Source: Apium graveolens (lineage: Eukaryota > Streptophyta > Magnoliopsida > Apiales > Apiaceae). Taken from it: a stretch of 64,000 nucleotides of DNA. The DNA is taken from positions 65,941,414 through 66,005,413 of the forward strand of contig NC_133653.1 in assembly GCF_009905375.1 (NCBI RefSeq). Reading direction: 5' to 3'. The notes beneath the pieces were generated by a model. The model was not told where the DNA came from. It made no database searches and saw only the letters and a program-made list of their open reading frames with translations. Positions 2,857 through 50,459 of this stretch are shown one piece after another. Made by a program: the position numbers and the translations under genes. Every line of letters begins with the position of its first letter. The stretch's first letter is position 1.

Positions 2857-2931
2857 TGTTAGGAATATATGTGCATTAGTTTGATGATATGTTTAACAAA
2901 ACACTTAAGTAGAAATTCAGTGTCTGTAGCC

Positions 2932-3289
2932 TCAACGGATAAGACCACTTTGGCTATCCGTTGATGTTGTAGCTTTACTTAGAAATAAGTCTAGTGTTGT
3001 AGCATATTTCAGTCTCTGTATTTAAGATGTAATTCTTAGAAGTTGAGAGAAACTATGAGTCATGTTGACTACTAGAAGATATGCAGATAGGAAGGCCAAT
3101 TGTAAATATTTCATGCCTTGTAATTTTGTATAAATGAAGTGGTATCAACGGATGACTTAAAGACCTTCAACGGATGAGAAGCTAAGCTTCAACGGATGTC
3201 TCTAAAGCTTCAACGGATAACATCCTTCAACGGATGAGTGCATCAACGGATGAAAGCTTCAACGGATGTTCTGTTGATTAACCGTTGAT
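2932..3289 (+). promoter_or_regulatory. U3 array of the TCAACGGAT motif
   Basis: Exact copies start at 2932, 3145, 3167, 3189, 3210, 3227, 3243 and 3259. One is on the opposite strand at 2956, and a near copy (AACCGTTGA) is at 3280. The downstream set is a loose direct repeat with starts about 16-22 bp apart. The array ends about 105 bp before the LTR TATA box, where enhancers usually lie. Confidence 0.75.
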
Positions 3290-3395
3290 AAGTGGTAGTT
3301 GTACCTACAAACAGAGGCACGTGGGTGAACAGAGATAACTGAAATGTGGCAGCCTAATTTCAGGAACATCAGAAAAAGCAGCCGTTCTACTCTAG

Positions 3396-3402
3396 TATAA
3401 AG
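3396..3402 (+). promoter_or_regulatory. LTR TATA box of element A
   Basis: TATAAAG in the context CTAGTATAAAGAGAC, 540 bp into the LTR. It is repeated at 15501-15507 in the 3' LTR. Transcription would start about 30 bp downstream, giving a U3 of about 570 bp. Confidence 0.65.
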
Positions 3403-3873
3403 AGACATTAAGTCAACAAAGTACTGGAGTGAACTGGAGAAGAAACAAGTGGAGATCTTACTTTATTATTTTATAATATCCTTGTCTTCACTTGTAAACT
3501 TGGTAACATATAAACCAAGTAGTAGCTAGTAATTAGATAAGAATTTTTCCAGAGCTGTTTAGAAAAATCTTGAGAGAAAAATTATCTAGTTTGTACTAGG
3601 ATGCAGCTGTGATCAAATTCTTAGATCACAGAATTTCTGAAATACCATCTCTGGTGGAACAACAAATCCACCAGAAAAGTTTTTAAAGGTTTATTGTGTT
3701 CTTTACATTTGTGTTTGAATATATATCTGTCTGTATCAGCTTAAAGCAATTCACACACTTGTTCATCTTAAACACACAGTCTTTATAAACTGGTCAAAAC
3801 TTGAAAAAGTTTTGAGATTTACATTCAACCCCCCTTCTGTAAATCTCATTGTTAGTTCTCTAGAAATAACAAT

Positions 3874-3885
3874 TGGTATCAGAGC
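3874..3885 (+). other. Primer binding site, initiator tRNA-Met type
   Basis: TGGTATCAGAGC lies two bases after the LTR end. This is the usual plant Ty1/copia primer site complementary to the 3' end of initiator tRNA-Met. Confidence 0.9.
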
Positions 3886-3932
3886 AGGCTCTTGACAAAC
3901 AAAGAGTTTAAAGATCTTGGAATCTAACAAAG

Positions 3933-6359
3933 ATGAGTAAGAAGGATATTGGAGTAAAAATCCCAGTTCTTGACAGAGACAGTTATCACCACTGGAAGGT
4001 GAAAATGCACCTTCATCTACTCTCCCAAGATGAAGGTTATGTAAACTGTATTGAGAATGGTCCTCACATTCCCCACAAAGTAGCCACAGTTGCTACGTCC
4101 ACAATTGCTGTTGGTCAATCCATTCCAAAACCTAGAGCAGAATGGACAATGGAAGACACAGAAGAAGTCCACAAGGATAAGAAGGCTATGAACATTTTGT
4201 TTAATGGTCTTGACAAGGATATGTTTGATAATGTGATAAATTGCTCAACTGCCAAAGAGGTTTGGGACACAGTTCAGCTGCTGTGTGAAGGTACAGAACA
4301 AGTAAAAGAGAACAAGATGCAGCTTCTCATTCAACAGTATGAGTATTTTCATTTTGAAGAAAATGAATCTTTAAATGACACATTTAATAGATTCCAAAAG
4401 CTGTTGAATGGATTGAAGCTGTATGGTAGAGTGTACCAGGTGAAGGATTCAAATCTTAAATTCTTAAGATCCTTGCCAAAGGAATGGAAACCCATGACTG
4501 TCTCCTTAAGAAACTCTCAGGATTATAAGGACTTCACTCTTGAAAGATTATATGGAATCTTGAAGACTTATGAACTAGAGTTGGAACAGGATGAGGTATT
4601 GGAGAAGGGGAGAAAGAAAGGAAGTTCAGTTGCATTGGTAGCTGAAAATGAGAGGGAATGCAGACAAGAAACTGTGAGATCTACATCAAACTCCAAAGAT
4701 GGTACAAGATATCAGGAATCAAGCAAAGGAAAAGAGCAAGTTGCTGAGAATGAAGACAACTCCAGTCAAGATGACTCTGATAGTGTTGATGAGCATCTTG
4801 CATTTCTGTCCAGGAGATTTGCAAAGATGAAGTTTAAGAAAAACACTAGAGCCACTAAACCTCATAAGAACATGGTGGACAAATCAAAGTTCAAGTGTTT
4901 CAATTGTGGTATAAGTGGACACTTTGCAAGTGAGTGCAGAAAGCCAACATCTGAAAAGAAGAAATTTGACCAAGTAGATTACAAGAAGAAATATTTTGAT
5001 CTGCTCAAGCAAAAGGAAAGGGCTTTCATTACTCAAGAAAAAGATTGGGCAGCTGATGGAGAGGAAGAGAATGAAGATGTGGAGTATGTCAACTTAGCTC
5101 TCATGGCTGATTCTGAGGAAAATGAAGTTAGTTCATCAAGCAATCAGGTAACAACTCAGGTAATCACTACTGATGTAACACAACTTACTAAAGAAGAGTG
5201 CAATGATGCTTTTAATGACATGTCTACTGAATTGTATCATTTGCGTGTGTCTCTTAAATCTCTTGCTAAAGAAAATAGTAGGATTAAAGAGAACAATCTG
5301 TTTTTAAGTAATAGAAATGCTATGTTAGAAGATAAGTTGATTGACCTTGAGAAAACCAAGCTGCATTGTATATCTGTTGAGAATGAACTAGCTGAATCTA
5401 TTAAGAAAGTAGAAATACTTTCTAATCAATTAAAGAGAGAGCAAGAGGTGATTAAAGCCTGGAAAACATCTAGGGATGTTAGTGCTCAAATTGCCAAGGT
5501 CCAAGGAATTGAATCATTCTGTGAAACTGCCTGGGATAAAAACAAAAAGAAACTGGAATTAATTGATGGGCTGTCAACGGATGTGGAATCAACGGATGAT
5601 GAAGGTTATCCGTTGAAGGAAGAAAATGAGCATCCGTTGAAGGTTCCTCAATTAAAACAGGCAGATGTTTCTATTAGTGAAAATCTAAAGAAACTCAACA
5701 AAAAGTTTGGTTCAACTTCCAAGAACTTTGTTAAAGAAGAAGCAAGCACATCCAAAGATGTCAGTAAGGTGAATATAGGGCACATGACCTTAGAACAGTT
5801 AAATAATAGGCTCAAGATGGTTGAGGATAAAAAGGAAACTAAAAGAAAATCTAACAGAAATGGGAAGGTAGGTGTTAACAAACATAACAATTACACACCT
5901 GATAGGTATGCTCCTAGAAAAAGCTGTGTGCATTGTAGTAGTGTTAATCATCTATCTGCTAATTGCAAATCTATTAAGAAAACCCCCATAACTGTACCCT
6001 CTTCCATGCCTAACATGTCTGCATCATCTCTACATGCTATGCCTACGATGTCTCAACAGAATCCTTATGCACATTTTGCAAACATGCCATATTTTAACAA
6101 TCCTTATCTTGCTGCATTTAGTATGCCTCAAATGCCATACAATATGCCTATGTGGAATAACATGTATGCACAATCCATGCCTTATCATATTCCAAATGTG
6201 CTAAATGATTCTGTGACTAACCCTACACCTCAACCAACTACATCTAAGACCAAGGTTGACTCAAAGTTACCTAAGTCTAAAGATGCAGGAGAAATGAAGT
6301 CTAGGAGAAAGGCTAACAAGAATGGACCCAAGGAAACTTGGGTACCAAAATCAAATTGA
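3933..6359 (+). CDS. gag: Gag polyprotein of element A
   Basis: Gag, 808 aa, forms the particle that packages the element RNA. Residues 1 to about 230 form the Ty1/copia gag domain (UBN2/Retrotran_gag_2 type) with YHHWKVKMHLHLLSQDEGYV and SLPKEWKPMTVSLRNSQDY. A CCHC knuckle, CFNCGISGHFASEC, starts at Cys322. A coiled-coil-prone segment runs from about 430 to 530. A second CCHC motif, CVHCSSVNHLSANC, starts at Cys665. A Met/Pro/Asn-rich tail (about 685-765) and a basic end (KETWVPKSN) follow. It is much longer than usual copia gags but typical for the SIRE branch. The start is the first ATG after the primer site. Four copies of the TCAACGGAT motif lie at 5574-5640. The stop is TGA at 6357, and pol starts in another frame just after it. 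Confidence 0.93.
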   Translation: MSKKDIGVKIPVLDRDSYHHWKVKMHLHLLSQDEGYVNCIENGPHIPHKVATVATSTIAVGQSIPKPRAEWTMEDTEEVHKDKKAMNILFNGLDKDMFDNVINCSTAKEVWDTVQLLCEGTEQVKENKMQLLIQQYEYFHFEENESLNDTFNRFQKLLNGLKLYGRVYQVKDSNLKFLRSLPKEWKPMTVSLRNSQDYKDFTLERLYGILKTYELELEQDEVLEKGRKKGSSVALVAENERECRQETVRSTSNSKDGTRYQESSKGKEQVAENEDNSSQDDSDSVDEHLAFLSRRFAKMKFKKNTRATKPHKNMVDKSKFKCFNCGISGHFASECRKPTSEKKKFDQVDYKKKYFDLLKQKERAFITQEKDWAADGEEENEDVEYVNLALMADSEENEVSSSSNQVTTQVITTDVTQLTKEECNDAFNDMSTELYHLRVSLKSLAKENSRIKENNLFLSNRNAMLEDKLIDLEKTKLHCISVENELAESIKKVEILSNQLKREQEVIKAWKTSRDVSAQIAKVQGIESFCETAWDKNKKKLELIDGLSTDVESTDDEGYPLKEENEHPLKVPQLKQADVSISENLKKLNKKFGSTSKNFVKEEASTSKDVSKVNIGHMTLEQLNNRLKMVEDKKETKRKSNRNGKVGVNKHNNYTPDRYAPRKSCVHCSSVNHLSANCKSIKKTPITVPSSMPNMSASSLHAMPTMSQQNPYAHFANMPYFNNPYLAAFSMPQMPYNMPMWNNMYAQSMPYHIPNVLNDSVTNPTPQPTTSKTKVDSKLPKSKDAGEMKSRRKANKNGPKETWVPKSN
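5574..5640 (+). repeat. TCAACGGAT motif cluster inside gag
   Basis: Forward copies at 5574 and 5589; complementary copies at 5608 and 5632. Forward copies read Ser-Thr-Asp; complementary ones read through Pro-Leu. The copies at 5589 and 5608 form an inverted pair with a 10-bp spacer. The related element B has TCGACGGAT-type motifs at the same gag position (54482-54533). Confidence 0.8.
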
Positions 6360-6379
6360 TTGATTTTATGGTGTGCAGG
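6357..6379 (+). promoter_or_regulatory. gag-pol junction with a 3' splice-acceptor-like TGTGCAG/GG
   Basis: The gag TGA (6357-6359) is followed 16 nt later by GTGTGCAG then GG at 6371-6380, where the protease region opens. The pol frame is +1 relative to gag, closed by TGA at 6361-6363, and has no ATG before the protease. The same sequence is conserved at the B junction (56687-56710), but with 17 nt, so the relative frame differs. This favours splicing or another frame-independent mechanism over a fixed frameshift. Confidence 0.4.
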
Positions 6380-9300
6380 GAAATAGAAGAAATTTATGGT
6401 ACTTGGACAGTGGCTGTTCAAGACACATGACAGGAGATTTCTCCCTGCTCACAGAGTTTAAGGAAAGAGCTGGCCCTAGCATAACCTTTGGAGATGACAG
6501 CAAAGGGTTTACTATGGGATATGGCTTGATTTCAACAAGGAATGTCATCATTGATGAAGTTGCATTAGTTGATGGTCTCAAACATAACTTACTGAGCATC
6601 AGTCAACTATGTGATAAAGGGAATACAGTTTCCTTCAATTCTGAAGCCTGTGTTGTCACTAGTAAGAAAGACAACAAAGTGGTTCTAACTGGAGTTAGAA
6701 AAGGAAATGTGTACTTAGCTGACTTCAACTCTGCAAATGCAGAATCTATTACTTGTCTCTTCAGCAAAGCAAGTTCAGTTGAGAGTTGGCTATGGCACAA
6801 GAAGCTATCCCATTTGAATTTCAAGACAATGAATGATCTAGTCAAAAAGGACCTAGTAAGAGGAATTCCTCTTGTTGAATTCTCAAGGGATGGTTTGTGT
6901 GATGCTTGTCAGAAAGGCAAACAAAGGAAAGCATCATTCAAAAAGAAGCTTGAAACAACAATTGATGAACCATTACAGCTGCTACATATGGATTTGTTTG
7001 GACCAGTCAATGTATTGTCAATTGAAAGAAAAAGATATTGCTTAGTGATTGTAGATGATTTCTCAAAGTTTTCATGGGTCTATTTTCTTGGATCAAAGAA
7101 TGAAGGAAGTGAAATCATTATCAATCACATCAGGCAAGTCAATAATCATCCTGACCTGAAGGTTAGGAATATCAGGAGTGACAATGGAACTGAATTCAAG
7201 AATTTATCAATGAGGTTGTTCTGTGAAGAAAATGGAATCATGCATGAGTTCTCAGCTCCAAGAACACCTCAGCAAAATGGGGTAGTTGAAAGAAAGAACA
7301 GATCTTTAATTGAGGCTGCCAGAACAATGCTTGAAGAATCAAAGTTACCAACATATTTCTGGGCTGAAGCTGTTAATTGTGCCTGTTTCACTCAAAATAT
7401 CTCTTTGATCAATCAAGCTAAAGGCATGACTCCTTATCAGTTGTTCAAGAGAAGAAAACCAACTCTAAACTTTCTTCATGTCTTTGGATGTAAATACTTT
7501 ATACTAAGGAATCAATCTGACCATAAAGGGAAGTTTGATGCAAAGGCTGATGAAGGGATATTTGTTGGTTATTCAGCTGGAAAATCTTATAGGGTCTACA
7601 ATCTAAGAACCAACATTGTTATGGAATCTGTGCATGTTGTGTTTGATGATAAAAAGATTGATGGACTAACAGATGAGGGACAATATGAGAGACTCAAATT
7701 TGACAACATTGAGATATATTGTGATGATAGTGAAGAGGAGACTGATGGAGATAACACTTCAAAAGGGATTCAAAACATGCCCTTGGATAATGCACAAAAT
7801 ACTGCATCCGTTGAAAGTCAGAATTCTGCATCCGTTGATAGAGGCAATGCAGTATCCGTTGAAAGACATGGTGTATCATCCGTTGAAGTACTAAATGAAG
7901 CATCCGTTGATCATAGTTTATCAACGGATAATCGATTTACATCATCAGTTGATAGAACTGCAAGTTCCCTGCAAAGGACCAACAACTCAGGGGGAGTTTC
8001 AACTAGTCAACACTCTGTCTCACATCATGACAATACTGAGGCCACCTCATCTAGAGCACATCTTCCACTTCAAAGGAAATGGACCAAGAATCATCCCTTT
8101 GAACTGATCATTGGTGATGCATCATCTAAAGTGCAAACAAGAAGAGCTACTCAAGATGAATGTCTGTATAGTAGTTTTCTATCTCAGGAGGAACCTAAGA
8201 AAGTGGAAGAAGCCTTATTGGATCCAGATTGGATATTAGCTATGCAGGAAGAGCTAAACCAATTTGAGAGAAACCAAGTTTGGAAGCTGGTACCCAAACC
8301 AAAGAACAAGAGTCCTATTGACACAAAATGGGTATTCAGAAACAAGATGGATGAAAATGGCATTATCATAAGGAATAAAGCCAGATTGGTTGCTAAAGGC
8401 TATTCTCAGCAAGAGGGAATAGATTTTGATGAGACATATGCTCCTGTTGCAAGACTTGAAGCCATCAGAATTTTTCTAGCCTATGCAGCTCATGCCAATT
8501 TCAAAGTCTATCAAATGGATGTCAAGAGTGCATTTCTAAATGGGAAATTAGAGGAAGAAGTCTATGTAAGTCAACCTCCAGGATTTGAAGATCCAAATTT
8601 TCCAGACTATGTATATTATCTGTTGAAAGCACTCTATGGACTGAAGCAAGCACCTAGAGCCTGGTATGAAACCTTATCAAAATTTTTTTTGGAGAATCAC
8701 TTCACTAGAGGTACTATTGATAAAACTCTCTTCTTTAGGAATGTTAATGGCTCTAGTATACTTGTTCAAATTTATGTAGACGACATAATATTTGGTTCTA
8801 AAGATGATAAACTTTGTAAAAAGTTTGCTAAGCTAATGCAAAGTAATTATGAAATGAGCCTTATGGGAGAACTAACCTATTTTCTTGGTTTACAAATTAA
8901 ACAAGTTAGTAATGGAATTTTCATTAGTCAAACTAAATATATTCATGATCTATTAAAGAAGTTTGACTTAATGGAATGTTCATCTGTAAAAACTCCCATG
9001 GCCACTGCCACCAAACTTGAATTAAATAAGACTGAAAGGTCTGTGGACATTACAAGTTATAGAGGCATGGTTGGTTCACTTTTATATTTAACTGCTAACA
9101 GACCAGATATAATGTTTGCTACATGTCTGTGTGCTAGATTTCAAGCTGATCCTAGGGAGTCTCACTTAATAGCTATCAAAAGGATTTTCAGATATCTCAA
9201 GGGTACACCAAATTTAGGTATTTGGTATCCTAGAGAATCTGGCTTTGATCTAATTGGTTATTCAGATGCAGACTATGCAGGTTGCAAAATAGACAGGAAA

Positions 9301-9717
9301 AGTACAACAGGCTCCTGCCAATTCCTGGGAAACAAGCTTGTATCATGGTTTAGCAAAAAGCAAAATTCAGTCTCTACTTCTACAGCTGAGGCTGAAGACA
9401 TTGCTGCTGGAAGTTGCTGCTCTCAAGTGTTATGGATGAGAAATCAACTCCTTGACTATGGACTTCATGTTGATAGAATTCCTATCTTTTGTGACAACAC
9501 AAGTGCCATAGCCATAACAGAGAATCCTGTACAGCACTCAAGAACCAAGCACATTAATATCAAGTACCACTTCATTAGGGAGCATGTCATGAATGGTACA
9601 GTGGAACTACATTTTGTTCCAAGTGAACAACAAATTGCAGACATATTTACCAAGCCACTTGATGAATCAACATTCACAAGATTAGTAAGTGAGCTAGGTA
9701 TGCTTAATTACTCTTAA
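6364..9717 (+). CDS. pol: Pol polyprotein of element A (protease, integrase, reverse transcriptase, RNase H)
   Basis: The enzymes for processing, reverse transcription and integration lie in copia order. Positions are counted from 6373. Protease active site LDSG at Asp12. The integrase zinc region runs from [12 protein letters not shown] to [14 protein letters not shown]. The integrase triad is Asp207, Asp270 and Glu306, the last two spaced D-35-E. Reverse transcriptase starts near [20 protein letters not shown], with YVDD at 801-804. RNase H has YSDADYAG with Asp965 and STAEAED. The ORF ends LGMLNYS and is about 1114-1118 codons with no breaks. There is no ATG at the 5' end, so it is probably made as Gag-Pol or from a spliced RNA. 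The connector before the reverse transcriptase (7806-7929) contains six TCAACGGAT motifs, read as Ser-Val-Glu/Asp, a different frame from that used in gag. Confidence 0.93.
7806..7929 (+). repeat. TCAACGGAT motif cluster inside pol
   Basis: Five complementary copies (ATCCGTTGA) start at 7806, 7830, 7854, 7878 and 7902, exactly 24 bp apart. One forward copy is at 7921. They encode a low-complexity linker between integrase and reverse transcriptase. Confidence 0.8.
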
Positions 9718-10264
9718 AATTCATGTCCTTATTGCAATTTGAATTGAAGCCTGAAATATATTAGTTGCTAGAACAAATTTGACTTTTAACAAAGTTTATA
9801 CCATCAACGGATGTTTCCTATCCGTTGAAAGTCAAAATTGCTCTATCAACGGATATTCATTATCCGTTGAAAGACAAATACATTTCTGGAATTTTTATCC
9901 GTCAACGGATAAAACTGAAGTACCTTTCAACGGATGACAATTTGCCTTATCCGTTGAAATGTCACATCAGTCGATTCAGGTGTTTCACAGCCGTTGATTC
10001 TATTTTCTTAACCGTTAATACTCATACATACATTTGTATGTATTGGTTTTAAAGGTAGTTGTTAGAATACTTACAGTTTATTCTTAAACGGCTGAAATTC
10101 ACTAACATATACTTATTGATTAATCTTTTACTAATTTTTTTTTGAAAGCATATAAGCCCTTCTGATTTTTCATTTTTACTTTACGCTTTCTTAAAATTTC
10201 AAGCATTTACCATTTTCTCTCTGCAAAACCTTCAAGTTATTCTCTGCAATTTCTACTCACAACA
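9718..10264 (+). promoter_or_regulatory. Spacer between pol and ORF3 with motif cluster
   Basis: 547 bp without a gene. It holds seven exact TCAACGGAT copies in both orientations (starts 9804, 9820, 9846, 9862, 9902, 9927, 9949). Two inverted pairs have exactly 7 bp between the arms (9804-9828 and 9846-9870). A near copy (GCCGTTGA) is near 9990. A TATA-like sequence follows at 10151. I read this as an internal promoter region for ORF3. Confidence 0.55.
10151..10156 (+). promoter_or_regulatory. TATA-like box of ORF3 in element A
   Basis: TATAAG in the context GCATATAAGCCC, 109 bp before the ORF3 ATG. A T-rich leader follows. The motif cluster lies 190-350 bp upstream. Confidence 0.4.
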
Positions 10265-13200
10265 ATGGCACCAGTCGTGAAAATTATGTCTCAATCTGGG
10301 TTCATCTATGAGAAGAACAATTTCATAGCTTTGGTAGAAAAGAATGAAGCCCATTCAGACTATCACAAAATGATGGACTTCATCAAAAACTGTAAACTTA
10401 GCTATGCAATGCTGGAAGCCCCAACGATTTACTGTGAAGTAGTTGAGGAGATTTGGACAACTGCTGAGTTCAACTCCATAGATATGACTATCTCCTTCAC
10501 TCTCAAAGGTAAAAATCACTGTATTAACTGTGATGATTTACAAGCATGTTTTAAATTACCTGAGAACAATGCCATGACACCACACACTGATAATGATGTA
10601 TCCAGCATGTTAGATTCCATAGGTTATTCTCTTAACTCTGCTAGTTTAGGGAGTATTAGAAGAAAAGGCCTTAGGAAAGAATGGAGTTTTCTTGGGGATG
10701 CCTTTATAAAGGTTTTCTCTGGGAAAATTAGTAATTTTGATGCCATAACTTCATCTCTTGTTAATATGCTCTATATGCTTGTTTCTGATAGGTATTTTAA
10801 CCTTAGCAACTATGTGATGCTAGAATTGGGTACTAGATTAGGTAACAAAGCTAATAGACCTAATAACATCTATTATGCTAGATTCTTTATGTTATTGGCT
10901 AACCATGTTGCTGAAGGTTTGGTCATAATCAATGAGAATAATAAACTCAAGTGCTGGGCACAAGAGAAAAGAGTTCTTGCAGATTTATTGAGAATGGATC
11001 TCAACAGCAGTGTGCCATTGGTATATTTACCAATCATGAATGCACCTCAGGTAGGTGAGGTAATTGCTTCTACAACTCCTACTTCTTCCAACCCCTCTAT
11101 TTCTTTATCTTCTAGTGTGGCCATGAAATCTGTGACAGTGCCCCAACAGATTTCTACCAAGGTCACCAAAACTAAACTTTCAAAATCAAAGACAAAGAAA
11201 ACCACCTCTGTTGTTTCTCAAAAGACAACAGTTGTAACACCAACCATTAACCCTGAGGAGAGTGAACAGGGTGTGAGTGGTGAGGGGAGGGGTGAACATC
11301 AAAGAAACCCCCAGGATAAGGAAGGAGAGTTAAGTGCTTCCCAAGCTAGCCAAACCACAGTTTCTCAAAAAGCTGTGGTGGTTGAAAAGGTATCTAGCAC
11401 ATCCCTAGTTGCATCCTCCCAAAAGGATGTTACTATTGAAAATAGTTCCCAACCAGGAACACAGAACAAACGAGGGAGGGACACTGAAGCCAAACACTCA
11501 CCAACAAAAGCTTTTATTAGAAGAAAGAAGGCTAGAACCCAATCTTCTACACAGGGTGCACACACTGCACAGATACATCCATCTGTATCTATGCCTTCTC
11601 AAACTCAGTTTGATGTGGCTCCAATAAATGTGGAGTCACAGCCCCATTCTCTCACAATAATCACACATCAATCACCAAACACTTCATCACCATCTCTAGA
11701 TGTGGATATGTTATTCCCATCAATTCCTGATTCTCCCTCTTTACAACTCAGGGAGGAGCCCCACTCAAATACAGGTGATCATCATCTCTTAGATGATTTG
11801 TTGGATCACCCGCAAATTCTTTCAGATATAATTGAAGGATCTGTGTCACCACATCTCAAATCAATCTACACAGATTCAACAGTTATATCACTTTCAATTT
11901 CAACTTCTTTTCCTTCTTCAACGGATATCACTCATCCGTTGACAAGTGGTTGCTCTTCAACGGATAAGCTTAACAGCAGTTATCCGTTGATAACATCAGT
12001 TTCACCTTCAACGGATATTCCACATCCGTTGATAGTCTCTCCACACATAACTGAATCAATTCCAAGTGTAGAAGACATGAATACTGTGCAATCACTCTTA
12101 GGATTGAGGGAAGGGAGTGAAAATTTGAGTGAGAGGTTGGGTTGCTCCCAGGCAAAAGGAGAGATTGAGAGCTCAAAAATGCATGCTATTTCTTCCAGCA
12201 TGGCAAAAGTAAGTGAGAGGAGTACCACCTTAGTAGGTGAAGGTGGGGGAGTGAGTTGTGTGAGCCAGGGGGAGCCCCTGATGCAAGAAAATAGAGAAAA
12301 AGAGAGAAAGGCAGGTACAGTAGATATAAGGGTGGAACCAGCCATTGCTAGTGAGTCAATGATTGTGGATGATGCTGAAAAGGAAAGACAATTTCAGCAA
12401 CATTACAAAGCTGTAATTGATAACATTTTCTTGGATGCTGACACTTTTACTCATCCTGTGTCAGCCTATCAAATGTTGGCTGCTCAGGGCAATGAGGAGG
12501 CAGAAAAGACACTACATCTAGTACACACAATAGAATCTCTTCAAAGGGATAAAGCTGCTATTACCAAGATGCCTTCTACAGCTGGTGAGCCATCTGAGGA
12601 ATTTGGAGTAAATTCTGATGATGATGACTCTGTTTCTTTTGATGGAAGCATGAACTTAGGGGGAGATGAAGGCCCTAGTTCAATTCTAAATCTACCTGAA
12701 TGGGCTTTGACAAAGGAGTATAGATCAGGGGAATTCAATGTCTCCTTAGTCAAACAAATCAACACTATTCAACAGGCCATTCAGAACACTTCACATGCAA
12801 GTATCAAGGCTATCCTTCAAGCTCACCTGGACTCACTGCATCTCATGAAGTTGCAGCAAGTAAAGCAGAATCTGAGTATGGATGATCTCAGGAAGGATAT
12901 TGCTGACTTGAAATCCTACAGTTCTGAAAAATTGGATTCAGTCATGCCCTATGGTACATTGCAGGACTTGGTTTTGAGATTGAAAAAGGAATCAGTTACT
13001 GAGAAAAGGCTGGCCAAGTTGGAAGACAGAGTTCAAGTTATTGAAGATTCTGTGGCCACCATTCTTCACAACCAACAATCTCAAACCAGTCTCCTAATGC
13101 AGCTGGCAAAAGCACAAGGCTTGACCCCTCTCCTTGATGATAACAAAAAGGGGGAGAGTAAAAGGGAAGGGGAAGGAGAGCCATCTACAAAAATCAAAAT

Positions 13201-14773
13201 ATCTAAAGTGCTAGTTCCTGCCATCACTACTTCTCCAATCATTCAAATCAAAGGAAAGCCTGATGGAATTGATTTGATTCAGCTAGCAGCAGCTGAAATT
13301 CAAGTGAAAGAGCAAAGGAGGAGAATTGATGAAAGGTTGCAACTGTTGTTTGGCTCTACACAAGATAAATCAACATCTGTGAAATACAGCACAAAGATTG
13401 AACCAATCAACATGGAGCTCAAGCCAGTAGGGAGACATAAGGATGAAGAAGCTTCTTCCAAAGAACTACAAGCTATAATTCTCAAGCCCAATAAAAGATC
13501 CAATAAGGACTCTACAAAGAATCGTTTAAAAGAAGTGGACTTTCCTCCTCCAAAAGCTGATGAGAACAAGCTTTTAGGTAGGAGTATTGCTTATCTCAAA
13601 GAGACCATGGATGAGGCTGTAAGGAGAAATAGGGCTATTATCTCTAGAGAGGGAAAGAGCATATGTGTGATGCAAGGACATCCCAAATTCTCAATAGCCA
13701 AGAAGGAAGAAGTCAAGCAACTAAAGGCTGACAAAAGAGCACAAGCAAAGCTTGAACAACAGCTAAAGTCAAGTCAAGTTGAAGAAGAGAAAGGAATTGA
13801 AGTCAGGGGTGAAGACAAGATTGCAAACCTAGATGAGGTTTTTGGGAGTATATTTGGTGAGAGTATGGAAGAAAGAGAGGAATGGCAGAAGGGAAACAGA
13901 AGAAAGGCCAAGGCACATAGAAGGAGTGAAGATAATACTGAAGTAACCAAATCTATATCTAAACCACTACCTTCCATACCTGAACCTCTTGTTGCTAATC
14001 CCACTATAAACATCCATGGTGAACCAATCATTCCAAAAGAGGAACCTATTGATTGGGACACCATCAAATTGCCTACCTTTCTAACCACTCTTCCACTACC
14101 AAAGAAACAGAAAAGAAAACCCAAATCTACACCTCCCATAACCTCTAAGAAATTCACTCAAAAACAAAAGCCTAAGCCTAAGTCATCCATTTCTAAAGAT
14201 GATTATGTTCACATCTGTGGCATAAAAGAAATTTCAGACATTGAACTCTATCTGGATGAGCTGGAGGATGTAAGAGGAATAGCTGCTTACAGACAGCTAC
14301 CAGAGAGATTAGTGTTTAGATACAAAGGAGCTGGGGAAAGAACATGGCCTCTCCAAAGGATTCTGAATGAAGGCTACTCTACCTTGATTAGAGTCTTTTC
14401 AGCTATACAAAAGGATTCTGCCTTTACCAGAACTGCCAAGACTGAAATTCTCAACAAGATTGCCAATATAAGGAAAACTTGGAGGGAGCCCAATGCTTTA
14501 CCCAGGACTTTACTCATTCAAGAAAGGGGAATTACAATTCACAAATCACCTCATTGGTTGATGGAATTTAGAGATGATAAAGGAGTCAGAAGATTTTTCA
14601 GACTTGAAGACCAACTCAAGATTGCCAGCAATGAAACTCTCAAGGAAATGCAATCTAAGTTGGATATCAGTGTTGAAGATGAAGCTGAATTCTTCAGACA
14701 ACTCCAACTCCAAATTGAGGAAAATGACAAAGGGCTAGGAAAGAAAACCAGGGAACAAAGAAGAAAAAGATGA
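10265..14773 (+). CDS. ORF3 of element A, large non-enzymatic accessory protein (1502 aa)
   Basis: The function is unknown. The ATG has a good context (AACAATGGC). Visible parts, in order: an N-terminal globular domain (about residues 1-245) with RKEWSFLGDAFIKVFSGK, SNFDAI and IYYARFFMLLANH; a long Ser/Thr/Gln-rich region with Lys/Arg-rich patches resembling nuclear-localisation signals (about 280-450); a linker with six TCAACGGAT motifs (residues about 550-590); a coiled-coil-prone part (about 835-960); a Lys-rich region; and a C-terminal domain (about 1310-1430) starting YVHICGIKEISDIELYLDEL. The same order is recognisable in the C elements. I see no signal peptide, hydrophobic membrane helix or glycoprotein pattern, so the 'env-like' label used for SIRE third ORFs is not supported here. 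The ORF is unbroken and has its own TATA-like box. A DNA-binding role is inference only. Confidence 0.85.
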   Translation: MAPVVKIMSQSGFIYEKNNFIALVEKNEAHSDYHKMMDFIKNCKLSYAMLEAPTIYCEVVEEIWTTAEFNSIDMTISFTLKGKNHCINCDDLQACFKLPENNAMTPHTDNDVSSMLDSIGYSLNSASLGSIRRKGLRKEWSFLGDAFIKVFSGKISNFDAITSSLVNMLYMLVSDRYFNLSNYVMLELGTRLGNKANRPNNIYYARFFMLLANHVAEGLVIINENNKLKCWAQEKRVLADLLRMDLNSSVPLVYLPIMNAPQVGEVIASTTPTSSNPSISLSSSVAMKSVTVPQQISTKVTKTKLSKSKTKKTTSVVSQKTTVVTPTINPEESEQGVSGEGRGEHQRNPQDKEGELSASQASQTTVSQKAVVVEKVSSTSLVASSQKDVTIENSSQPGTQNKRGRDTEAKHSPTKAFIRRKKARTQSSTQGAHTAQIHPSVSMPSQTQFDVAPINVESQPHSLTIITHQSPNTSSPSLDVDMLFPSIPDSPSLQLREEPHSNTGDHHLLDDLLDHPQILSDIIEGSVSPHLKSIYTDSTVISLSISTSFPSSTDITHPLTSGCSSTDKLNSSYPLITSVSPSTDIPHPLIVSPHITESIPSVEDMNTVQSLLGLREGSENLSERLGCSQAKGEIESSKMHAISSSMAKVSERSTTLVGEGGGVSCVSQGEPLMQENREKERKAGTVDIRVEPAIASESMIVDDAEKERQFQQHYKAVIDNIFLDADTFTHPVSAYQMLAAQGNEEAEKTLHLVHTIESLQRDKAAITKMPSTAGEPSEEFGVNSDDDDSVSFDGSMNLGGDEGPSSILNLPEWALTKEYRSGEFNVSLVKQINTIQQAIQNTSHASIKAILQAHLDSLHLMKLQQVKQNLSMDDLRKDIADLKSYSSEKLDSVMPYGTLQDLVLRLKKESVTEKRLAKLEDRVQVIEDSVATILHNQQSQTSLLMQLAKAQGLTPLLDDNKKGESKREGEGEPSTKIKISKVLVPAITTSPIIQIKGKPDGIDLIQLAAAEIQVKEQRRRIDERLQLLFGSTQDKSTSVKYSTKIEPINMELKPVGRHKDEEASSKELQAIILKPNKRSNKDSTKNRLKEVDFPPPKADENKLLGRSIAYLKETMDEAVRRNRAIISREGKSICVMQGHPKFSIAKKEEVKQLKADKRAQAKLEQQLKSSQVEEEKGIEVRGEDKIANLDEVFGSIFGESMEEREEWQKGNRRKAKAHRRSEDNTEVTKSISKPLPSIPEPLVANPTINIHGEPIIPKEEPIDWDTIKLPTFLTTLPLPKKQKRKPKSTPPITSKKFTQKQKPKPKSSISKDDYVHICGIKEISDIELYLDELEDVRGIAAYRQLPERLVFRYKGAGERTWPLQRILNEGYSTLIRVFSAIQKDSAFTRTAKTEILNKIANIRKTWREPNALPRTLLIQERGITIHKSPHWLMEFRDDKGVRRFFRLEDQLKIASNETLKEMQSKLDISVEDEAEFFRQLQLQIEENDKGLGKKTREQRRKR
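11918..12032 (+). repeat. TCAACGGAT motif cluster inside ORF3
   Basis: Three inverted pairs: 11918/11934 (7-bp spacer), 11957/11982 (16-bp spacer) and 12008/12024 (7-bp spacer). Forward copies read Ser-Thr-Asp, complementary copies His/Tyr-Pro-Leu. Confidence 0.8.
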
Positions 14774-14951
14774 TTTGCTCAGGCTAAAGGAGTATCCTTG
14801 GAAATACTGTAAATCTTCAATTTCCTCCTAGTACATACATTTTTGCAGCATTTTCAAATTTCTACTTAGTTTCAATTCATATATCTGTTAAGTGTTTTGT
14901 TATCATCAAGTTAACCCTGAATTTATGCCTACAATTCTTATAGACATAAAT

Positions 14952-14961
14952 AGGGGGAGAT
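14952..14961 (+). other. Polypurine tract of element A
   Basis: AGGGGGAGAT directly before the 3' LTR at 14962. It primes plus-strand DNA synthesis. The C elements have the same GGGGGAGAT sequence before their 3' LTRs. Confidence 0.85.
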
Positions 14962-15976
14962 TGTTAGGAATATATGTGCATTAGTTTGATGATATGTTTA
15001 ACAAAACACTTAAGTAGAAATTCAGTGTCTGTAGCCTCAACGGATAAGACCACTTTGGCTATCCGTTTATGGTGTAGCTTTACTTAGAAATAAGTCTAGT
15101 GTTGTAGCATATTTCAGTCTCTGTATTTAAGATGTAATTCTTAGAAGTTGAGAGAAACTATGAGTCATGTTGACTACTAGAAGATATGCAGATAGGAAGG
15201 CTAATTGTAAATATTTCATGCCTTGTAATTTTGTATAAATGAAGTGGTATCAACGGATGACTTAAAGACCTTCAACGGATGAGAAGCTAAGCTTCAACGG
15301 ATGTCTCTAAAGCTTCAACGGATAACATCCTTCAACGGATGAGTGCATCAACGGATGAAAGCTTCAACGGATGTTCTGTTGATTAACCGTTGATAAGTGG
15401 TAGTTGTACCTACAAACAGAGGCACGTGGGTGAACAGAGATAACTGAAATGTGGCAGCCTAATTTCAGGAACATCAGAAAAAGCAGCCGTTCTACTCTAG
15501 TATAAAGAGACATTAAGTCAACAAAGTACTGGAGTGAACTGGAGAAGAAACAAGTGGAGATCTTACTTTATTATTTTATAATATCCTTGTCTTCACTTGT
15601 AAACTTGGTAACATATAAACCAAGTAGTAGCTAGTAATTAGATAAGAATTTTTCCAGAGCTGTTTAGAAAAATCTTGAGAGAAAAATTATCTAGTTTGTA
15701 CTAGGATGCAGCTGTGATCAAATTCTTAGATCACAGAATTTCTGAAATACCATCTCTGGTGGAACAACAAATCCACCAGAAAAGTTTTTAAAGGTTTATT
15801 GTGTTCTTTACATTTGTGTTTGAATATATATCTGTCTGTATCAGCTTAAAGCAATTCACACACTTGTTCATCTTGAACACACAGTCTTTATAAACTGCTC
15901 AAAACTTGAAAAAGTTTTGAGATTTACATTCAACCCCCCTTCTGTAAATCTCATTGTTAGTTCTCTAGAAATAACA
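14962..15976 (+). repeat. 3' LTR of element A
   Basis: 1015 bp, matching 2857-3871 with about five substitutions. One of these changes the second motif (ATCCGTTGA to ATCCGTTTA), leaving eight exact copies. TATAAAG is at 15501-15507. The target duplication GCATA follows at 15977-15981. Confidence 0.95.
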
Positions 15977-16540
15977 GCATAGTCACTTGAATCGCACATC
16001 ATCTCAAAAGGTTCGTCCCAATTAGGTGCAATTATGATAGGTGGTGTGATTAAACTCTTCTTCAAGAACTCAAAAGCAGTTAGGCACTCGTCATCAAACT
16101 TGAATGGGACATCTTTCTCTAGAATATTGCACAAAGGTTTAGAGATTTTTGAGAAGTCCTTGATGAAACGCCTATAGAAACCCGCATGACCAAGAAAGCT
16201 TCGGACTCCCTTAACATAATTTGGTGAAGGAAGGTTTTCGATAACCCCCACCTTGGCTTTATCCACCTCAAGACCTTTACTAGAGACCTTATTCCCAAGA
16301 ATAATGCCCCGTCACACCATAAAATGACATTTCTCCCAGTTGAGAACCAGATTGGTCTCAACAAACCTTTTAAGAATGGCGCCAAGATTTTGCAAGCATT
16401 CGTCAAAAGAATCACCAAACACAGAGAAATCATCCATGAAGCCAATCATGTTAGAGAAGATAGCCATCATGCATCTCTGAAATGTGGCAGGTGCTCCACA
16501 CAACCTAAAAGAAACTTTTCTGAAGGCAAAGTAGATGCAT
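15977..16540 (-). pseudogene. Athila reverse transcriptase C-terminal half and start of RNase H
   Basis: This is the continuation of the Athila pol on the far side of element A. On the minus strand it reads CGAPATFQRCMMAIFSNM, then FMDDFSVFGDSFDECLQNLG, the YXDD-box region with the catalytic Asp pair. Next come SFLGHAGFYRRFIKDFSKIS (connection) and WDEPFEMMCDSSDYAV (RNase H start), where element A cuts it at 15982. A frame change lies near 16270-16310. The 5' half of the reverse transcriptase, including the first catalytic Asp motif, is missing. The frame jumps from the pol N-terminal linker (HLRYAFRGDAST) straight to the segment before CGAPATF, with the junction near 16530-16545. This is a deletion, not an assembly of exons. 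Confidence 0.8.
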
Positions 16541-20708: not shown

Positions 20709-23700
20709 TGTGACGCCCTCAATCTCGGGGTTAGGAAATGAGGACTCACACACATCTCTAATCTAGAAATTAAATAAGCATAAACCCCGATTAACTACTA
20801 ACAGGATCAACAGGATAAAGTATGAGACAAGATTACAACTTCCAATCATAAAATATAACTTACAAACCAAAAATATTATTAAATAAACAATATCGATTCC
20901 GGCTGGGAACCGACAGATAACCCATTGTATCTTTAAACATTTCCTTCTAGGCGCGAGCTCACTCATAAATACCACTACCTGCTCTGGCAACCGGAAGCCC
21001 TCAACACGGTAGGGACCACCAGGTACGCTCTTACGAGCAGTGCACTTAAGCCTGGCCATCTTCTTGCTTAACTGCCATGGTTAGATTAAAACAAAACATA
21101 TGAGTATAAAACTCAGCAAGTAACTATATAGCAATTCTACAATATCAATTCACAATATGCTTTACCAAACTCAGGGCATTCTACTTTATTTGATCTAGGT
21201 GGCAGATTTCTAGCTTTTGGGTTAAAGAAAGGTTTTGAAGGATAATGTGGGGCTTTCAAGGAACAAGGCTCAATGCAGGACGAAAGCCGACATTCATCAC
21301 AAATCATTAAAGGATCAGAATAGATCTTTCAAAAGAGGAAAACAACAGTATTTCAATATATGGAATCAATCATATGATCTACAAATTCAAGAATCAGGGT
21401 TCTCGAGCTTTAAGCTTCACATTGACATAATCAACTCTTTCCAAAACAATATAAACCATTTTCATTTTCAAGAATCAATTTACTGAACAGAAAGTTTCAG
21501 TTCCTTTTTTAAATAATCATTTAGAACCCTTGATTGGATCACTTTATCTTTCCATTTCATTATATATGGGTGATCAGCCCGTACCGACCTCCATTCTGGT
21601 CTTGAAGGTACTAATCGGCATAATTTTAGCCTTAAGTTGGACTAGCCCTGCTAGCCTCTTACCATGATTGGACTAGTCCCACTAGCCTCTTATGTCCCAA
21701 TCCAATCCATCAGGAATTCATTTGGAAAACCTTGAGTTGGAAAAACAAATAGGTTTTCTAAAATTCATTTTATCATTACCAAGAATTTGAAATCATTCGG
21801 ACTCTTTCAACTCGAAACTCATTCTTAATTCAGATTTTAAGGAAATAAAGTTCAGGGAGTGATTCAAAGATAAGCAAGGAACAATTCATAAGGATTCTGT
21901 ATCAGGGATAACAAAGCACTTAAGTTAGAAGGATCAACATCTGTTTAGGGATCAATAGGATGATCAGGAAATAAGGTATCATTAAACAGGGTAACAAGGA
22001 TAATCAGTTGGTTCAATACAATTCATGGCTTAATAAATAACTTGAACAGAAAGGACAGATTATCAAAGGGTTGAATCATTAAGCTTATCAATAACAGTTT
22101 ATCAAGAACAAAGGCAGGGTGTCTCAAATCAATATAGGGTTTCATAATTAAACAGTTCAATACTCTACATGGTATGAACAACATTCTCTTTATAACCATT
22201 TACACAAGTAATCAGAGTTATTTGCCTGAATTTGCTTTCCTGAAGGTTGAACTACTACCACCTAGTATATCCTTTCCTTTCCTAGCCTGAATGCCCTCAC
22301 GCTCCGAATCTACAATAAGAATCAAAATCTCAATCAATTTCTCAACTCTCATTCCCGGAATGATCACTCAATACGATAACTAGATTATATGCTTGACTCG
22401 AGTATATGATTATAGCTTATACACATAAGCACATAGCACATAGCATATCCCTTTCTAGTAACTTTTATATCCTTATATACTTAACAATCAAAACGTACTT
22501 GCTTAACCTTAGCTATTTCTCAAATCACACTAATATAACTCTTTTACGACCATAGCTATCACTTATAGCTCTTAATAACAAATGATTTAATTCTCTTTTT
22601 TTTCTTTTATTCCTTAATTCGAACCACACATACAAAACACAACCAAGTATATTCAATTTCAATCTCATATAATCAAACACAACTAATGCAATTCACAAGA
22701 GTCATCTACGCACTTAAACTTCATCCTTTTTAATCAAAAATCCGAATCATAATCACATTAAGAATCAAAATCAACACCTTCTTTTAATCATCAAAATTCG
22801 AACATAAACACCACCCCAATCTTTGTCATACAATCAAGTTATTACTAGCCATTAAGATAATTGACAAAAACCAACTTAATTCCTCTTTTTACTCCTAAGA
22901 CCCATTCGGGTTTTTCCATAAATCAAACGTGCAAGAATTATATTTGACATGCAAGGTTATATATCACATTTCCCAGTTGTTTAAATCCTTTACTAAGTCA
23001 TTCCATTCATTTAAACACCAAACCATGCATCACCTAGTGATTCTAACTTTAATTAACTCATTCAATCAACATGCATCCACTTAATCAACAAGCAAACCCA
23101 TTTTCCATTCGGCAAAAACATGATTAACAACTCTAAGGATCTAACAATTACATGCACTACTTGTTTTTCTCTAAAACTAACATGCAATTACTTTTTATGC
23201 TAAATAAGCTTAGTGTTCACTAAGATCAACTTACCAAATCAAATTCCTCTTTTTAATTAGCATAAAGCCTAATTAAAAACTCACATGCAACCTTAAATTT
23301 TAATCTCCTAATCATCAAACAACTTATACACACATCAACAATCAAGACATATCCATTTTCTAATCACATATTCAAGTTTTAAAAGAATTTATCAAAAACT
23401 CTTTTGATCTTTTCGAAAACCAAACATGCAAAGTTTTAGAATCAAATTATCATATCATAGAAACTCCACCGGCTCTCCTTGGATCATAGCCGGTGGTGGT
23501 TGAGCTTGAGAGAGCCCATAACGGGTCTCCTCTCGAGTTTATGACCCAAAAATCTCTTGAGTTCACTCTTATAGTTATGTATCAAGAAATTATTTTCCTT
23601 GAACACCACCATAGTGATTAATCATCAAAACACTTGCAAACACTTACATGCAAATGGGAATCGAGAAGTATACCGAAAATAAAGACTAAAGGAAGCAATA

Positions 23701-24774
23701 TCTTTGAGTTTGAGTGAGGTTTGAGTGTTGCATGCAAGAGAGAGAGATGAGAGATGGAGAGAGCCGAGAGAGAGAGTGAGAGTGTTCGAGAGAGAGGGAT
23801 GAGAAAGAAAAGAGAAGGGGATAGTGGGTGCACGGGGAGAAAAAAGAAAAATGGGGGGGGAAATGGATTTATATACCACCAAAACAAGGGCAAACTTGTA
23901 CTTTACTAATGCTTTTTATGCTTATATGTCCCTTTTCTTTTTACTCAAATGCAACAAAAATTAGATATAAAATATATCTCTCTCGAAAAGTCGGAAATTA
24001 TTGCAAGTGACGATTTTAACACGTAGATCTCGAAATTAGCTTTTTAACCATTACTCATAATAGATTTTTGAGCGGACGAGTGATTTTATATGAATTTCGC
24101 AAGCTTGCCTTAATAATAACATTTTTCCACATAAAATCAATTTAAAAATGCAAAGACCACCAAATAAATCCACTCATCATTTTTAAAAAGTCTCTAGGAC
24201 TACTAAGTAAATATCAAAACAGATCCCATGTTTTTATCTTACTCGGATGATTTTATAAAAATACGCAAAGGTTAATTAAACCTTTATTTAAATCACATAA
24301 TCCCTTTTAAATTCATACAAACGTCACAGAACATATATATAATCACATAACGACTCAGGTCTGATCATAGAATTTATCCCTCTTTAATCTTTATCCTTTT
24401 CTACGCGTACCGGGTCACGTTCAGCCTGACGGCCCGACGCTCAGCATTTTGATTACGCTTCTCATTATCTTTACCAATCAACACGTCACTTAGGATGAAA
24501 TACTTTATTTAAACATTCATTTCATTCAATCACACATAATTCACATTTTATATTCTTTAACTCCTTATTAGGACGAGTTCTGTTCTACCTGACGGCCCGA
24601 CGACACAGCTTAACTCCTAAGCTGACTCTTTAAATTAGAACGTTTTTATCTACGCTCCTATATTCTAATATACAGAAAAGACAATTAATCAGCACTTAGT
24701 CACATAATTATAATCTCATCACATAACACATACTTTATTGACTTAATTACGTCGCTAAATTCTCAGTCGTCACA
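20709..24774 (-). repeat. 3' LTR of the Tekay element (4066 bp)
   Basis: TGTGACG...CGTCACA ends, with 7-bp terminal inverted repeats. No gene is supported inside. The 83-codon frame at 21235-21486 recurs at 41535-41786 only because the LTRs are copies. It contains a TATATAAA box on the minus strand (23868-23875) and a CT-rich stretch on that strand just downstream (about 23735-23810). The rest is AT-rich. Confidence 0.9.
23868..23875 (-). promoter_or_regulatory. TATA box in the Tekay 3' LTR
   Basis: TATATAAA on the minus strand, followed by a pyrimidine-rich initiator-like region. The active counterpart in the 5' LTR is 44152-44159. Confidence 0.55.
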
Positions 24775-33739: not shown

Positions 33740-34300
33740 ACCAGAACCTTAATATGGTTCGATCAGAGTCCTGATCGATGCAAAAGAGGATCCTGATCGA
33801 TATCTTATTCGAACAGGAGGGAAGAAATCCCCTAAGATCGATCAGAGTCCTGATCGACAGAGAAGAGAGTCCTGATCGATATCTTATTCGAACAGGAGGG
33901 AAGAAATCCCCTAAGATCGATCAGAGTCCTGATCGACAGAGAAGAGAGTCCTGATCGATATCTTATTCGAAAAGGAGGGAAGAAATCCCCTAAGATCGAT
34001 CAGAGTCCTGATCGACGGAGAACAGAGTCCTGATCGATATTCCATTCGATCAGAATGGTCGAGAGCCATTTAAATTCGTTCAGAGTCCTGATCGAAATTG
34101 ATCAGGAATCCTGGTCGATTAAGCCCGTGTAGCAATCGACTAGGGTGTCACTTTGAAGGCCAATTCGGTCAGAATCCTGATCGAAATCGATCAGGAATCC
34201 TGTCGACCAGAGTGTAAGATCCTGAGCTAATTCGATCAGGATCCTGATCGATTTTGTCTGCATCCTGATCGATTTCGAATGCATTCTGATCGATTTTAAG
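33740..34300. repeat. 79-bp tandem repeat rich in the palindromic CCTGATCGA motif
   Basis: A 79-bp unit is repeated from about 33752 to 34040, with the same landmark at 33831, 33910 and 33989. A looser continuation runs to 34300. Within it the motif TCCTGATCGA and its complement TCGATCAGGA recur many times, often as inverted pairs such as CGATCAGAGTCCTGATCGA. The block lies directly upstream of the antisense gene promoter. Confidence 0.85.
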
Positions 34301-44000: not shown

Positions 44001-45087
44001 TGAGGTTTGAGTGTTGCATGCAAGTGAGAGAGATGAGAGATGGAGAGAGCCGAGAGAGAGAGTGAGAGAGTTCGAGAGAGAGGGATGAGAAAGAAAAGAG
44101 AAGGGGCGAGTGGGTGCATGGGGAGGAAAAAGAAAGATGGGGGGAAATGGATTTATATACCACTAAAACAAGGGCAAACTTGTACTTTACTAATGCATTT
44201 TATGCTTATATGTCCCTTTTCTTTTTACTCAAATGCAACAAAAATTAGATATAAAATATATCTCTCTCGGAAAGTCAGAAATTATTGCAAGTGACGATTT
44301 TAACACGTAGATCTCGAAATTAGCTTTTTAACCATTACTCATAATAGATTTTTGAGCGGACGGGTGATTTTATATGAATTTCGCAAGCTTGCCTTAATAA
44401 TAACATTTTTCCACATAAAATCAATTTAAAAATGCAAAGACCACAAAATAAATCCACTTATCATTTCTAAAAAGTCTCTAGGACTACTAAGAAGATATCA
44501 AAACAGATCCCATGTTTTTATCTTACTCGGATGATTTTATAAAAATACGCAAAGGTTAATGAAACCTTTATTTAAATCACATAATCCCTTTTAAATTCAT
44601 AAAAATATCACAGAACACATAGTCATGCACACAGACAACAATCTCACATATATAATCACATAGCGACTCAGGTCTGATCATAGAATTTATCCCTCTTTAA
44701 TCTTTATCCTTTTCTACGCGTACCGAGTCATGTTCAGCCTGACGGCCCGGTGCTCAGCGTTTTGATTACGCTTCTCATTATCTTTACCAATCAACACGTC
44801 ACTTAGTACAAAATACTTTATTTAAACATTCATTTCATTTAATCACACATAATTCTCATTTTATATTCTTTAATTCCTTATTAGGACGGGTTCCGTTCTA
44901 CCTGACGGCCCGACGATACAGCTTAATTCCTAAACTGACTCTTTAAATTGGAACGTTTTTATCTACGCTCCTATATTCTAATATACAGAAAAGACAATTA
45001 ATCAGCACTTAGTCACATAATTATAATCTCATCACATAACACATACTTTATTGACTTAATTACGTCACAAAATTCTCAGTCGTCACA
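41009..45087 (-). repeat. 5' LTR of the Tekay element (4079 bp)
   Basis: TGTGACG...CGTCACA, aligned end to end with 20709-24774. The TATA box is TATATAAA at 44152-44159 on the minus strand, about 930 bp into the LTR, followed by a CT-rich stretch (about 44025-44100). If transcription starts there, about 3.1 kb of R and U5 would form the leader. No gene is supported inside. Confidence 0.9.
44152..44159 (-). promoter_or_regulatory. TATA box in the Tekay 5' LTR
   Basis: TATATAAA on the minus strand, conserved in both LTRs. A CT-rich tract lies 50-130 bp downstream on the same strand. Confidence 0.6.
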
Positions 45088-45506: not shown

Positions 45507-45668
45507 ATTAGGAATATGTTGTGAACTTGATGATAAGTTAAACAAAACACCTTAAGAAGATTTAACTTAGTGAAATTTGTAGCTCTCGAAGGATGATATA
45601 ATATAGTCTCGAGGGATGAACTTTATAGTCCCGACGGATGACAACTTGACATCCATCGAGAGTGTAGC
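45507..45668 (+). repeat. 5' LTR of element B, left part
   Basis: Starts near TTAGGAATATGTTGTGAAC; the expected TGT is not clear, so the first bases are altered. It aligns with 2857 onward of element A. It contains TCGAAGGAT, TCGAGGGAT, CCGACGGAT and, on the other strand, ATCCATCGA (45586-45659). It is cut at 45668 by C1; the right part starts at 51885. Confidence 0.75.
45664..45668 (+). repeat. Target-site duplication around C1 (GTAGC)
   Basis: GTAGC precedes the left C LTR (45664-45668), follows the right C LTR (51885-51889), and also precedes the right C LTR (51321-51325). Three copies, rather than two, show that the right side is a rearranged second junction. Confidence 0.75.
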
Positions 45669-46228: not shown

Positions 46229-46372
46229 ATCTCCCCCATCTTTTAAATTATAAAAATATACAAGTTTATAGATTTGATGATGTCAAAAACATTTAAGTAC
46301 AAATGCAATGAGAGTTTATATGCACAACTAAATACAACTTACAGTACATGCAGTTTTTACCAAATTCACTGA

Positions 46373-50371: not shown

Positions 50372-50459
50372 TTCTGTTGGAAAATCAAGTGAAAATTTTG
50401 TGTTTGCAAAGTGTTTGATAAAATGCCTATAAGAGAACGACAGAAAATAAGAGAGTAAG

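Follow-up and report, generated by a model that had tools for sequence, protein, structure and literature searches.

A nine-base motif recurring in the terminal repeats, linker and genes of a celery Sirevirus, a possible address for an element-encoded anti-silencing protein

A 64-kb stretch of the celery (Apium graveolens) genome (contig NC_133653.1, positions 65,941,414 to 66,005,413; hereafter the window) contains a 13-kb retrotransposon with long terminal repeats (LTRs), element A, in which the nine-base motif TCAACGGAT occurs 40 times as exact copies on the two strands. Every copy lies within the element (2857–15976), against a chance level for the whole window of 0.31 (s.d. 0.60, maximum 3; 100 dinucleotide-preserving shuffles). 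A sequence-only reading had put the number at about 40, in coding and non-coding DNA alike, and had seen none elsewhere in the window; exact counting bears this out, together with its tally of nine copies in the 5′ LTR, four in gag, six in pol, seven in the linker between pol and the envelope-like open reading frame ORF3, six in ORF3 and eight in the 3′ LTR. We propose that the motif is a family-specific DNA address bound by the element's own ORF3 protein, which would thereby spare the element silencing methylation in much the way the protein VANC21 spares VANDAL21, a reading to which we give a little less than an even chance. More tentatively still, the envelope-like gene of Sireviruses may encode no envelope at all but a VANC-like, sequence-specific anti-silencing protein, with the address placed in LTRs, linker and three genes, and lock and key changing together by family.

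The copies form clusters (Table 1) that lie 2.0–2.4 kb from their neighbours, with a final gap of 3.3 kb to the 3′ LTR (from coordinates). Both orientations are present in each cluster except that of the 3′ LTR, where the reverse copy no longer matches at one base. Seven direct copies in the 5′ LTR (3145–3267), at a pitch of 16–22 bp, stand 129–251 bp upstream of TATAAA, and the five reverse copies in pol are spaced at exactly 24 bp. The ORF3 cluster sits in a stretch that is variable among relatives. No clear halo of decayed copies surrounds the motif: allowing up to one mismatch gives 52 sites, 12 of them additional, and the chance mean for this whole class is 12.18. One of the 12, at 15061 in the 3′ LTR, is the counterpart of the exact 5′ LTR site at 2956.

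In the genes, the motif is far more frequent than the encoded proteins demand. Synonymous-codon shuffles that kept protein and codon usage (2000 per gene), a comparison suggested by the sequence-only reading, gave on average 0.08 copies in gag (maximum 2), 0.14 in pol (maximum 3) and 0.08 in ORF3 (maximum 2); the observed 4, 6 and 6 exceed all these maxima. That reading had also given the frames of the reverse copies correctly: the five in gag and ORF3 read Tyr/His-Pro-Leu and the five in pol Ser-Val-Glu/Asp. Absent from it was the frame of the forward coding copies, all six of which are in frame 0 and read Ser-Thr-Asp. The uniform Ser-Thr-Asp and Tyr/His-Pro-Leu readings are points in favour of selection on the peptides themselves, were such repeats to matter in gag and ORF3. 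However, the reverse copies in pol use another frame, the LTRs and linker carry the motif too, and codon-preserving shuffles fail to yield it; on the strength of those shuffles we reject this explanation as extremely improbable. In a sister family, F2, a base change in the motif turns Pro-Leu into Pro-Ser. Because this change is synonymous in pol but converts HPL to HPS in gag and ORF3, it is the nucleotides and not one peptide that are followed, as had been claimed. Local duplication contributes to the arrays, as seen in the 24-bp pitch in pol and in exact 9-bp duplications of the motif in ORF3 of the diverged copy L003 (in frame) and in the non-coding linker of L006, so reading frames may be inherited within clusters.

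The motif also holds 40 of the 63 CpG dinucleotides of element A. Outside it, gag, pol and ORF3 contain 3, 2 and 5 CpGs against 81, 112 and 179 expected from C and G content, the LTRs 3 and 4 against 26 and 27, and the linker 6 against 9.8. TG and CA are over-represented, and arginine is encoded by 154 AGR and 4 CGN codons, a pattern that long methylation and deamination would leave. Elsewhere in the window the CpG ratio is 0.47–0.73 (left flank and two gypsy regions), 0.145 in element B and 0.318 in element C (both described below), and 16 pieces of coding sequence from diverged copies of A and F2 have values of 0.00–0.13 outside the motif. Selection may hold the CpGs of the motif, or they may escape germ-line methylation; a protein bound there would account for both.

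Retention was scored in two diverged copies, through BLAST pieces 78–89% identical to element A. Intact motif sites in L003 numbered 7/9 in the 5′ LTR, 5/8 in the 3′ LTR, 5/6 in pol, 4/5 in the linker and 5/6 in ORF3; in L005, 5/9 and 4/8 in the LTRs, 4/4 in gag and 2/6 in pol; and in L006, 5/7 in the linker and 3/6 in ORF3. All other 9-mers were intact in 15–40% of cases, depending on compartment. Pol of L005 is a weak spot, no better than its controls, and the LTR values are not independent, as both window LTRs were aligned to one same copy. CpG-bearing non-motif 9-mers, which are overlapping windows covering few CpGs, were never intact in genes (0/40, 0/12, 0/24, 0/12 and 0/32); each LTR comparison gave 0/24 and 3/32, and the linker 18/41 and 20/41, with motif-like words behind several.

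The element belongs to a large family, as a 31-bp LTR pattern with two motifs, with up to three mismatches allowed, finds 15,003 matches across the genome (reversed control, 0). Five other copies of element A, read at the four internal cluster places only, hold clusters at all four, as the sequence-only reading would have it for family members. In these copies ACGGAT sites are preceded by TCA in 20/20 cases in gag, 19/19 in pol, 34/39 in the linker and 27/27 in ORF3, the five exceptions being one site that overlaps a motif.

F2 has changed the motif in concert. The ORF3 paralogue P0001, a member of F2, has HPS/YPS where element A has HPL/YPL, and F2 was therefore expected to carry TCGACGGAT. 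This proved correct: TCGACGGAT is present in all 20 fetched F2 loci at 4–8 copies each, and 16 of them lack TCAACGGAT. Of 159 ACGGAT sites in 17 of these loci (the other three not being orientable), 146 have G as the third motif base, 12 have A and one has T; most of the sites belong to linker and ORF3, and L054 contributes five from pol. Six of the same F2 copies give G to A ratios at position 3 (position 2 being C or T) of 14:2 in gag, where the piece L070 yielded no site, 21:0 in pol and 24:11 in the LTR; unlike gag, pol, linker and ORF3, the F2 LTR is only partly rewritten to YCGACGGAT. F2 shares the 24-bp pitch of the pol copies and the convergent pair at 16 bp, and F2-type celery gags read YPS/HPS. 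One F2 locus, L044, has its five A-type sites in one separate array, at 15–16-bp pitch about 1.5 kb upstream of ORF3, perhaps an inserted piece of an element-A-type LTR.

The codon shuffles, the CpGs kept in genes nearly free of them, the retention in diverged copies (weak spots included) and the concerted change at position 3 in F2 together support the selected DNA or RNA recognition site that the sequence-only reading put forward. They also bear on the notion that local duplication and gene conversion produced the repeats as a by-product, or that host small RNAs act on them, with no benefit to the element in either case. The 24-bp units in pol and the 9-bp duplications show that duplication does occur, and in maize Sireviruses LTR regions rich in palindromes are hotspots of small RNAs (PMC5311732). 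But duplication accounts neither for one word recurring at five places in differing surroundings, nor for motif CpGs in genes stripped of almost all their other CpGs, nor for the identical base change that F2 shows across gag, pol, linker and ORF3, and we consider a by-product quite improbable.

Two further ORF3-bearing elements in the window, element B and one on the minus strand, use another word, ATCAGAACTT, in LTR, linker and ORF3; neither has a match longer than 150 bp to element A in a self-comparison of the window. The internal part of element B holds 15 copies of ATCAGAACTT at up to one mismatch (1.1 expected) and three exact ones (0.02 expected; 60 simulated sequences), and its LTRs carry arrays of the word. 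ORF3-bearing elements of one nucleus therefore carry different words.

This diversity weighs on the possibility that the motif is a host transcription-factor site driving the LTR promoter and an internal ORF3 promoter, with the coding copies as extra enhancers. TCAACGGAT includes CAACGG, which we take to be a Myb-like core, and both the seven direct copies upstream of the TATA sequence and the cluster ahead of ORF3 are placed as such a site would be. Regulatory boxes and an internal promoter of the envelope-like gene are suggested by Bousios 2010 (PMC2829016). However, two families in the same nucleus differ, the F2 change from AACGG to GACGG destroys the Myb core, the gag and pol clusters are distant from any known promoter, and element B uses a word of its own. 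We regard a host factor as an unlikely but serious alternative.

The motif could instead act in RNA, forward and reverse copies pairing to fold the genomic RNA for packaging or dimerisation. The mixed orientation of all element A clusters save that of the 3′ LTR is compatible with this, convergent pairs at 16-bp pitch could make hairpins, and concerted rewriting preserves pairing. But the pol cluster has five reverse copies to one forward and F2 pol is 21/21 reverse, the main LTR array consists of seven direct copies, and a single exact sequence is kept although any complementary pair would suffice. Pairing in RNA is improbable in our view; DNA is favoured as the recognised form, though not proved, because all but one of the copies in the pol cluster point the same way.

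A DNA address calls for a reader, which we infer to act in trans and to co-evolve with the motif, and which is predicted to be ORF3 through its N-terminal domain. The best, though tentative, match of the modelled domain in the PDB is VANC21 with DNA; the remaining matches shown in the fold search are, by name, unrelated proteins. ORF3 of element A matches no Pfam family at E 0.01, and neither it nor its relatives match PF09331 (DUF1985), the sequence mark of VANC proteins. HHalign comparison of the ORF3 domain with six celery DUF1985 sequences stayed at shuffle level, with thin profiles; a celery DUF1985 sequence itself matches VANC21 in the PDB (E 6.2e-6). Sequence-profile searches of the PDB with ORF3 returned no VANC match and one chance-level row each. 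Pfam searches with ORF3 and its relatives gave weak, sub-cut-off matches only, the aptest being to PF20167 (Transposase_32; E 0.018 and 0.015 for P0001 and P0009, residue 59 to about 185); when HHalign was used to compare the ORF3 domain with eight celery PF20167 sequences, and PF20167 with DUF1985, the results likewise stayed at shuffle level. PF20167 has 15,833 first-pass candidates in the celery genome, of which 150 were scored. By eye, PF20167, DUF1985 and the ORF3 domain share a short hairpin-then-helix pattern, which has no statistical support.

Comparison with VANC21 extends to the motif. VANC21 acts through nine-base YAGTATTAY sites, with hypomethylation spreading over VANDAL21, and VANC6 has other motifs (PMC5735166). 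As in VANC21/VANDAL21 (PMC5735166, PMC10398659), a nine-base, family-specific motif is repeated within the element that encodes its reader, here a predicted one (TCAACGGAT in A, YCGACGGAT in F2), and diverges between related families. Unlike VANDAL, a Mutator-like DNA transposon with non-coding motifs, element A is an LTR retrotransposon with motifs in its genes too; and unlike VANC21, ORF3 has no detected DUF1985.

If ORF3 is the reader, its protein would enter the nucleus and bind the clusters near 3.2, 5.6, 7.9, 9.9, 12.0 and 15.3 kb. Binding would cause local loss of methylation, spreading across the 2.0–3.3-kb gaps, and the LTR promoter and gene bodies would thereby escape silencing. Clusters about every 2 kb, genes included, would let hypomethylation reach the whole element. 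With a word particular to each family, only members of that family would benefit, and one family could not free another. The copies that precede the TATA sequence in the LTR and those before ORF3 may serve transcription too.

Coupling of motif and reader was also sought in ORF3 relatives, those named coming from celery, hogweed and carrot; motif types in carrot, hogweed and other relatives were judged from peptides alone. The gag P0041 and the ORF3 P0006, presumably on one contig, both have HPL. Carrot ORF3s P0008 and P0143 each contain HQL or YQL three times, out of step with the named carrot gags P0048 and P0063, which are HPS/YPS or mixed, and hogweed families match no single motif type. 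Covariation of gag and ORF3 across the Apiaceae is at best weakly suggested. A gag of this Sirevirus group that carries HQL peptides (P0043, 41 members) is filed under the fungus Rhizophagus irregularis; root culture may have brought plant DNA into the fungal assembly.

The nearest precedent among Sireviruses is the RM boxes, described in 2010 as high-copy, mostly CGG-cored, element-specific motifs that mark CpG islands and lie both in LTRs and ahead of the envelope-like gene (PMC2829016). The motif of element A resembles them as a CGG-cored, high-copy word; at least eight copies in the LTR and upstream of the envelope-like gene define such boxes, and element A has nine in the 5′ LTR and seven before ORF3. 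The convergent pairs of linker and ORF3 fit the RM-box palindrome with its CGG–CCG signature; in the LTRs and pol, direct half-sites make up the majority. Unlike RM boxes, the 9-mer stands mostly as a half-site, arrayed directly or convergently, gag, pol and the middle of ORF3 hold clusters of it in frame, the set changes as a whole between sister families, and the genes are otherwise nearly CpG-free. PMC2829016 suggests regulation, identifies no reader, and calls the function of both envelope-like genes and repeat boxes unproven; it lists four extra box copies at the start of the envelope-like gene in HOPIE and one in Osr10 (its Table 3), and, for Osr9 and Osr8, CpG islands predicted within pol. 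By its account linker boxes occur in 9/9 box-bearing elements with an envelope-like gene and in 0/4 without, matching what an ORF3 reader would lead one to expect. Against an ORF3 reader stand six envelope-bearing Sireviruses in the same source that lack boxes, unless their words are built differently, like that of element B. ORF3 lies between pol and the 3′ LTR like plant envelope-like genes (PMC2829016), and differs from the envelope reading in being proposed as a DNA-binding, anti-silencing protein. An open reading frame of a sunflower Tekay retrotransposon structurally resembles double-stranded-RNA-binding proteins, and a role of such frames in methylation has been posed as a question (PMC12844716). 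We found no prior report of coding clusters, concerted rewriting or a VANC-like Sirevirus frame in the literature covered.

Element A is flanked by LTRs that differ at 5 positions (99.5% identity; self-BLAST). Its primer binding site is one we take to be of the initiator-Met tRNA type. Integrase precedes reverse transcriptase, the copia gene order (Pfam), gag is large with a CCHC knuckle, and an envelope-like frame, which many Sireviruses have, lies downstream of pol; by gene order, domains and this frame we class element A as a Sirevirus (Ty1/copia, Pseudoviridae) of celery.

Table 1 Features of element A and of other ORF3-bearing elements in the window
Feature	Position	Strand	Remarks
Target-site duplication	2852–2856, 15977–15981		GCATA; flanks both LTRs
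5′ LTR	2857–3871	+	1015 bp; self-BLAST
5′ LTR motif cluster	2932–3267		9 exact: 8 forward, 1 reverse
Candidate TATA box	3396–3401		TATAAA in 5′ LTR; read by eye
Primer binding site	3874–3885	+	TGGTATCAGAGC; just 3′ of 5′ LTR; from sequence
gag	3933–6359	+	808 amino acids; copia-type gag PF14223, E 1.6e-21; CCHC knuckle PF00098, E 1.1e-6
gag motif cluster	5574–5640		2 forward (Ser-Thr-Asp), 2 reverse (Tyr/His-Pro-Leu)
pol	6373–9717	+	1114 amino acids; rve PF00665 at 199–299, RVT_2 PF07727 at 634–877
pol motif cluster	7806–7929		5 reverse (Ser-Val-Glu/Asp), 1 forward; interval from SH3-like domain to reverse transcriptase
Linker motif cluster	9804–9957		7 copies, including two convergent TCAACGGAT-N7-ATCCGTTGA pairs, 16-bp pitch
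ORF3, envelope-like gene	10265–14773	+	1502 amino acids; proposed motif reader
ORF3 N-terminal domain	10265–11062	+	Modelled residues 1–266; residues 18–227 align to DNA-bound VANC21
ORF3 motif cluster	11918–12032		3 forward, 3 reverse; two convergent pairs, 16-bp pitch
Polypurine tract	14952–14960	+	AGGGGGAGA; precedes 3′ LTR; from sequence
3′ LTR	14962–15976	+	1015 bp; 8 exact TCAACGGAT; site at 15061 off by one base
Element B	45595–51884		ORF3-bearing; word ATCAGAACTT; ORF3 domain in two broken frames
Further ORF3-bearing element	59700–64000	−	Word ATCAGAACTT

Other repeats share the window. Element B seems to be nested in an F2-type LTR, with YCGACGGAT repeats at its ends. Element C (52400–58180) is an interrupted F2-type Sirevirus, 80–86% identical to L057/L058, with TCGACGGAT in gag (54482); adjoining it, at 58.9–59.3 kb, is the tandem word ACTTGTCGA at 36–37-bp pitch. 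A tandem array of AGTCCTGATCGA repeats (33759–34119; 79-bp period, 22-bp sub-spacing) lies near a Ty3/gypsy element, CTGATCGA occurs 20 times at 24.9–36.5 kb (0.32 expected), and a 4.1-kb stretch is present twice at 96% identity (20709–24774 and 41009–45087).

Anti-silencing self-recognition has been described for VANDAL, Mutator-like DNA transposons (PMC5735166). If our proposal is true, envelope-like genes and Sirevirus boxes would have one answer, self-recognition against silencing, and an element could keep protein-binding sites inside its own coding sequence. It would also help to explain the spread of a family as abundant in the celery genome as that of element A.

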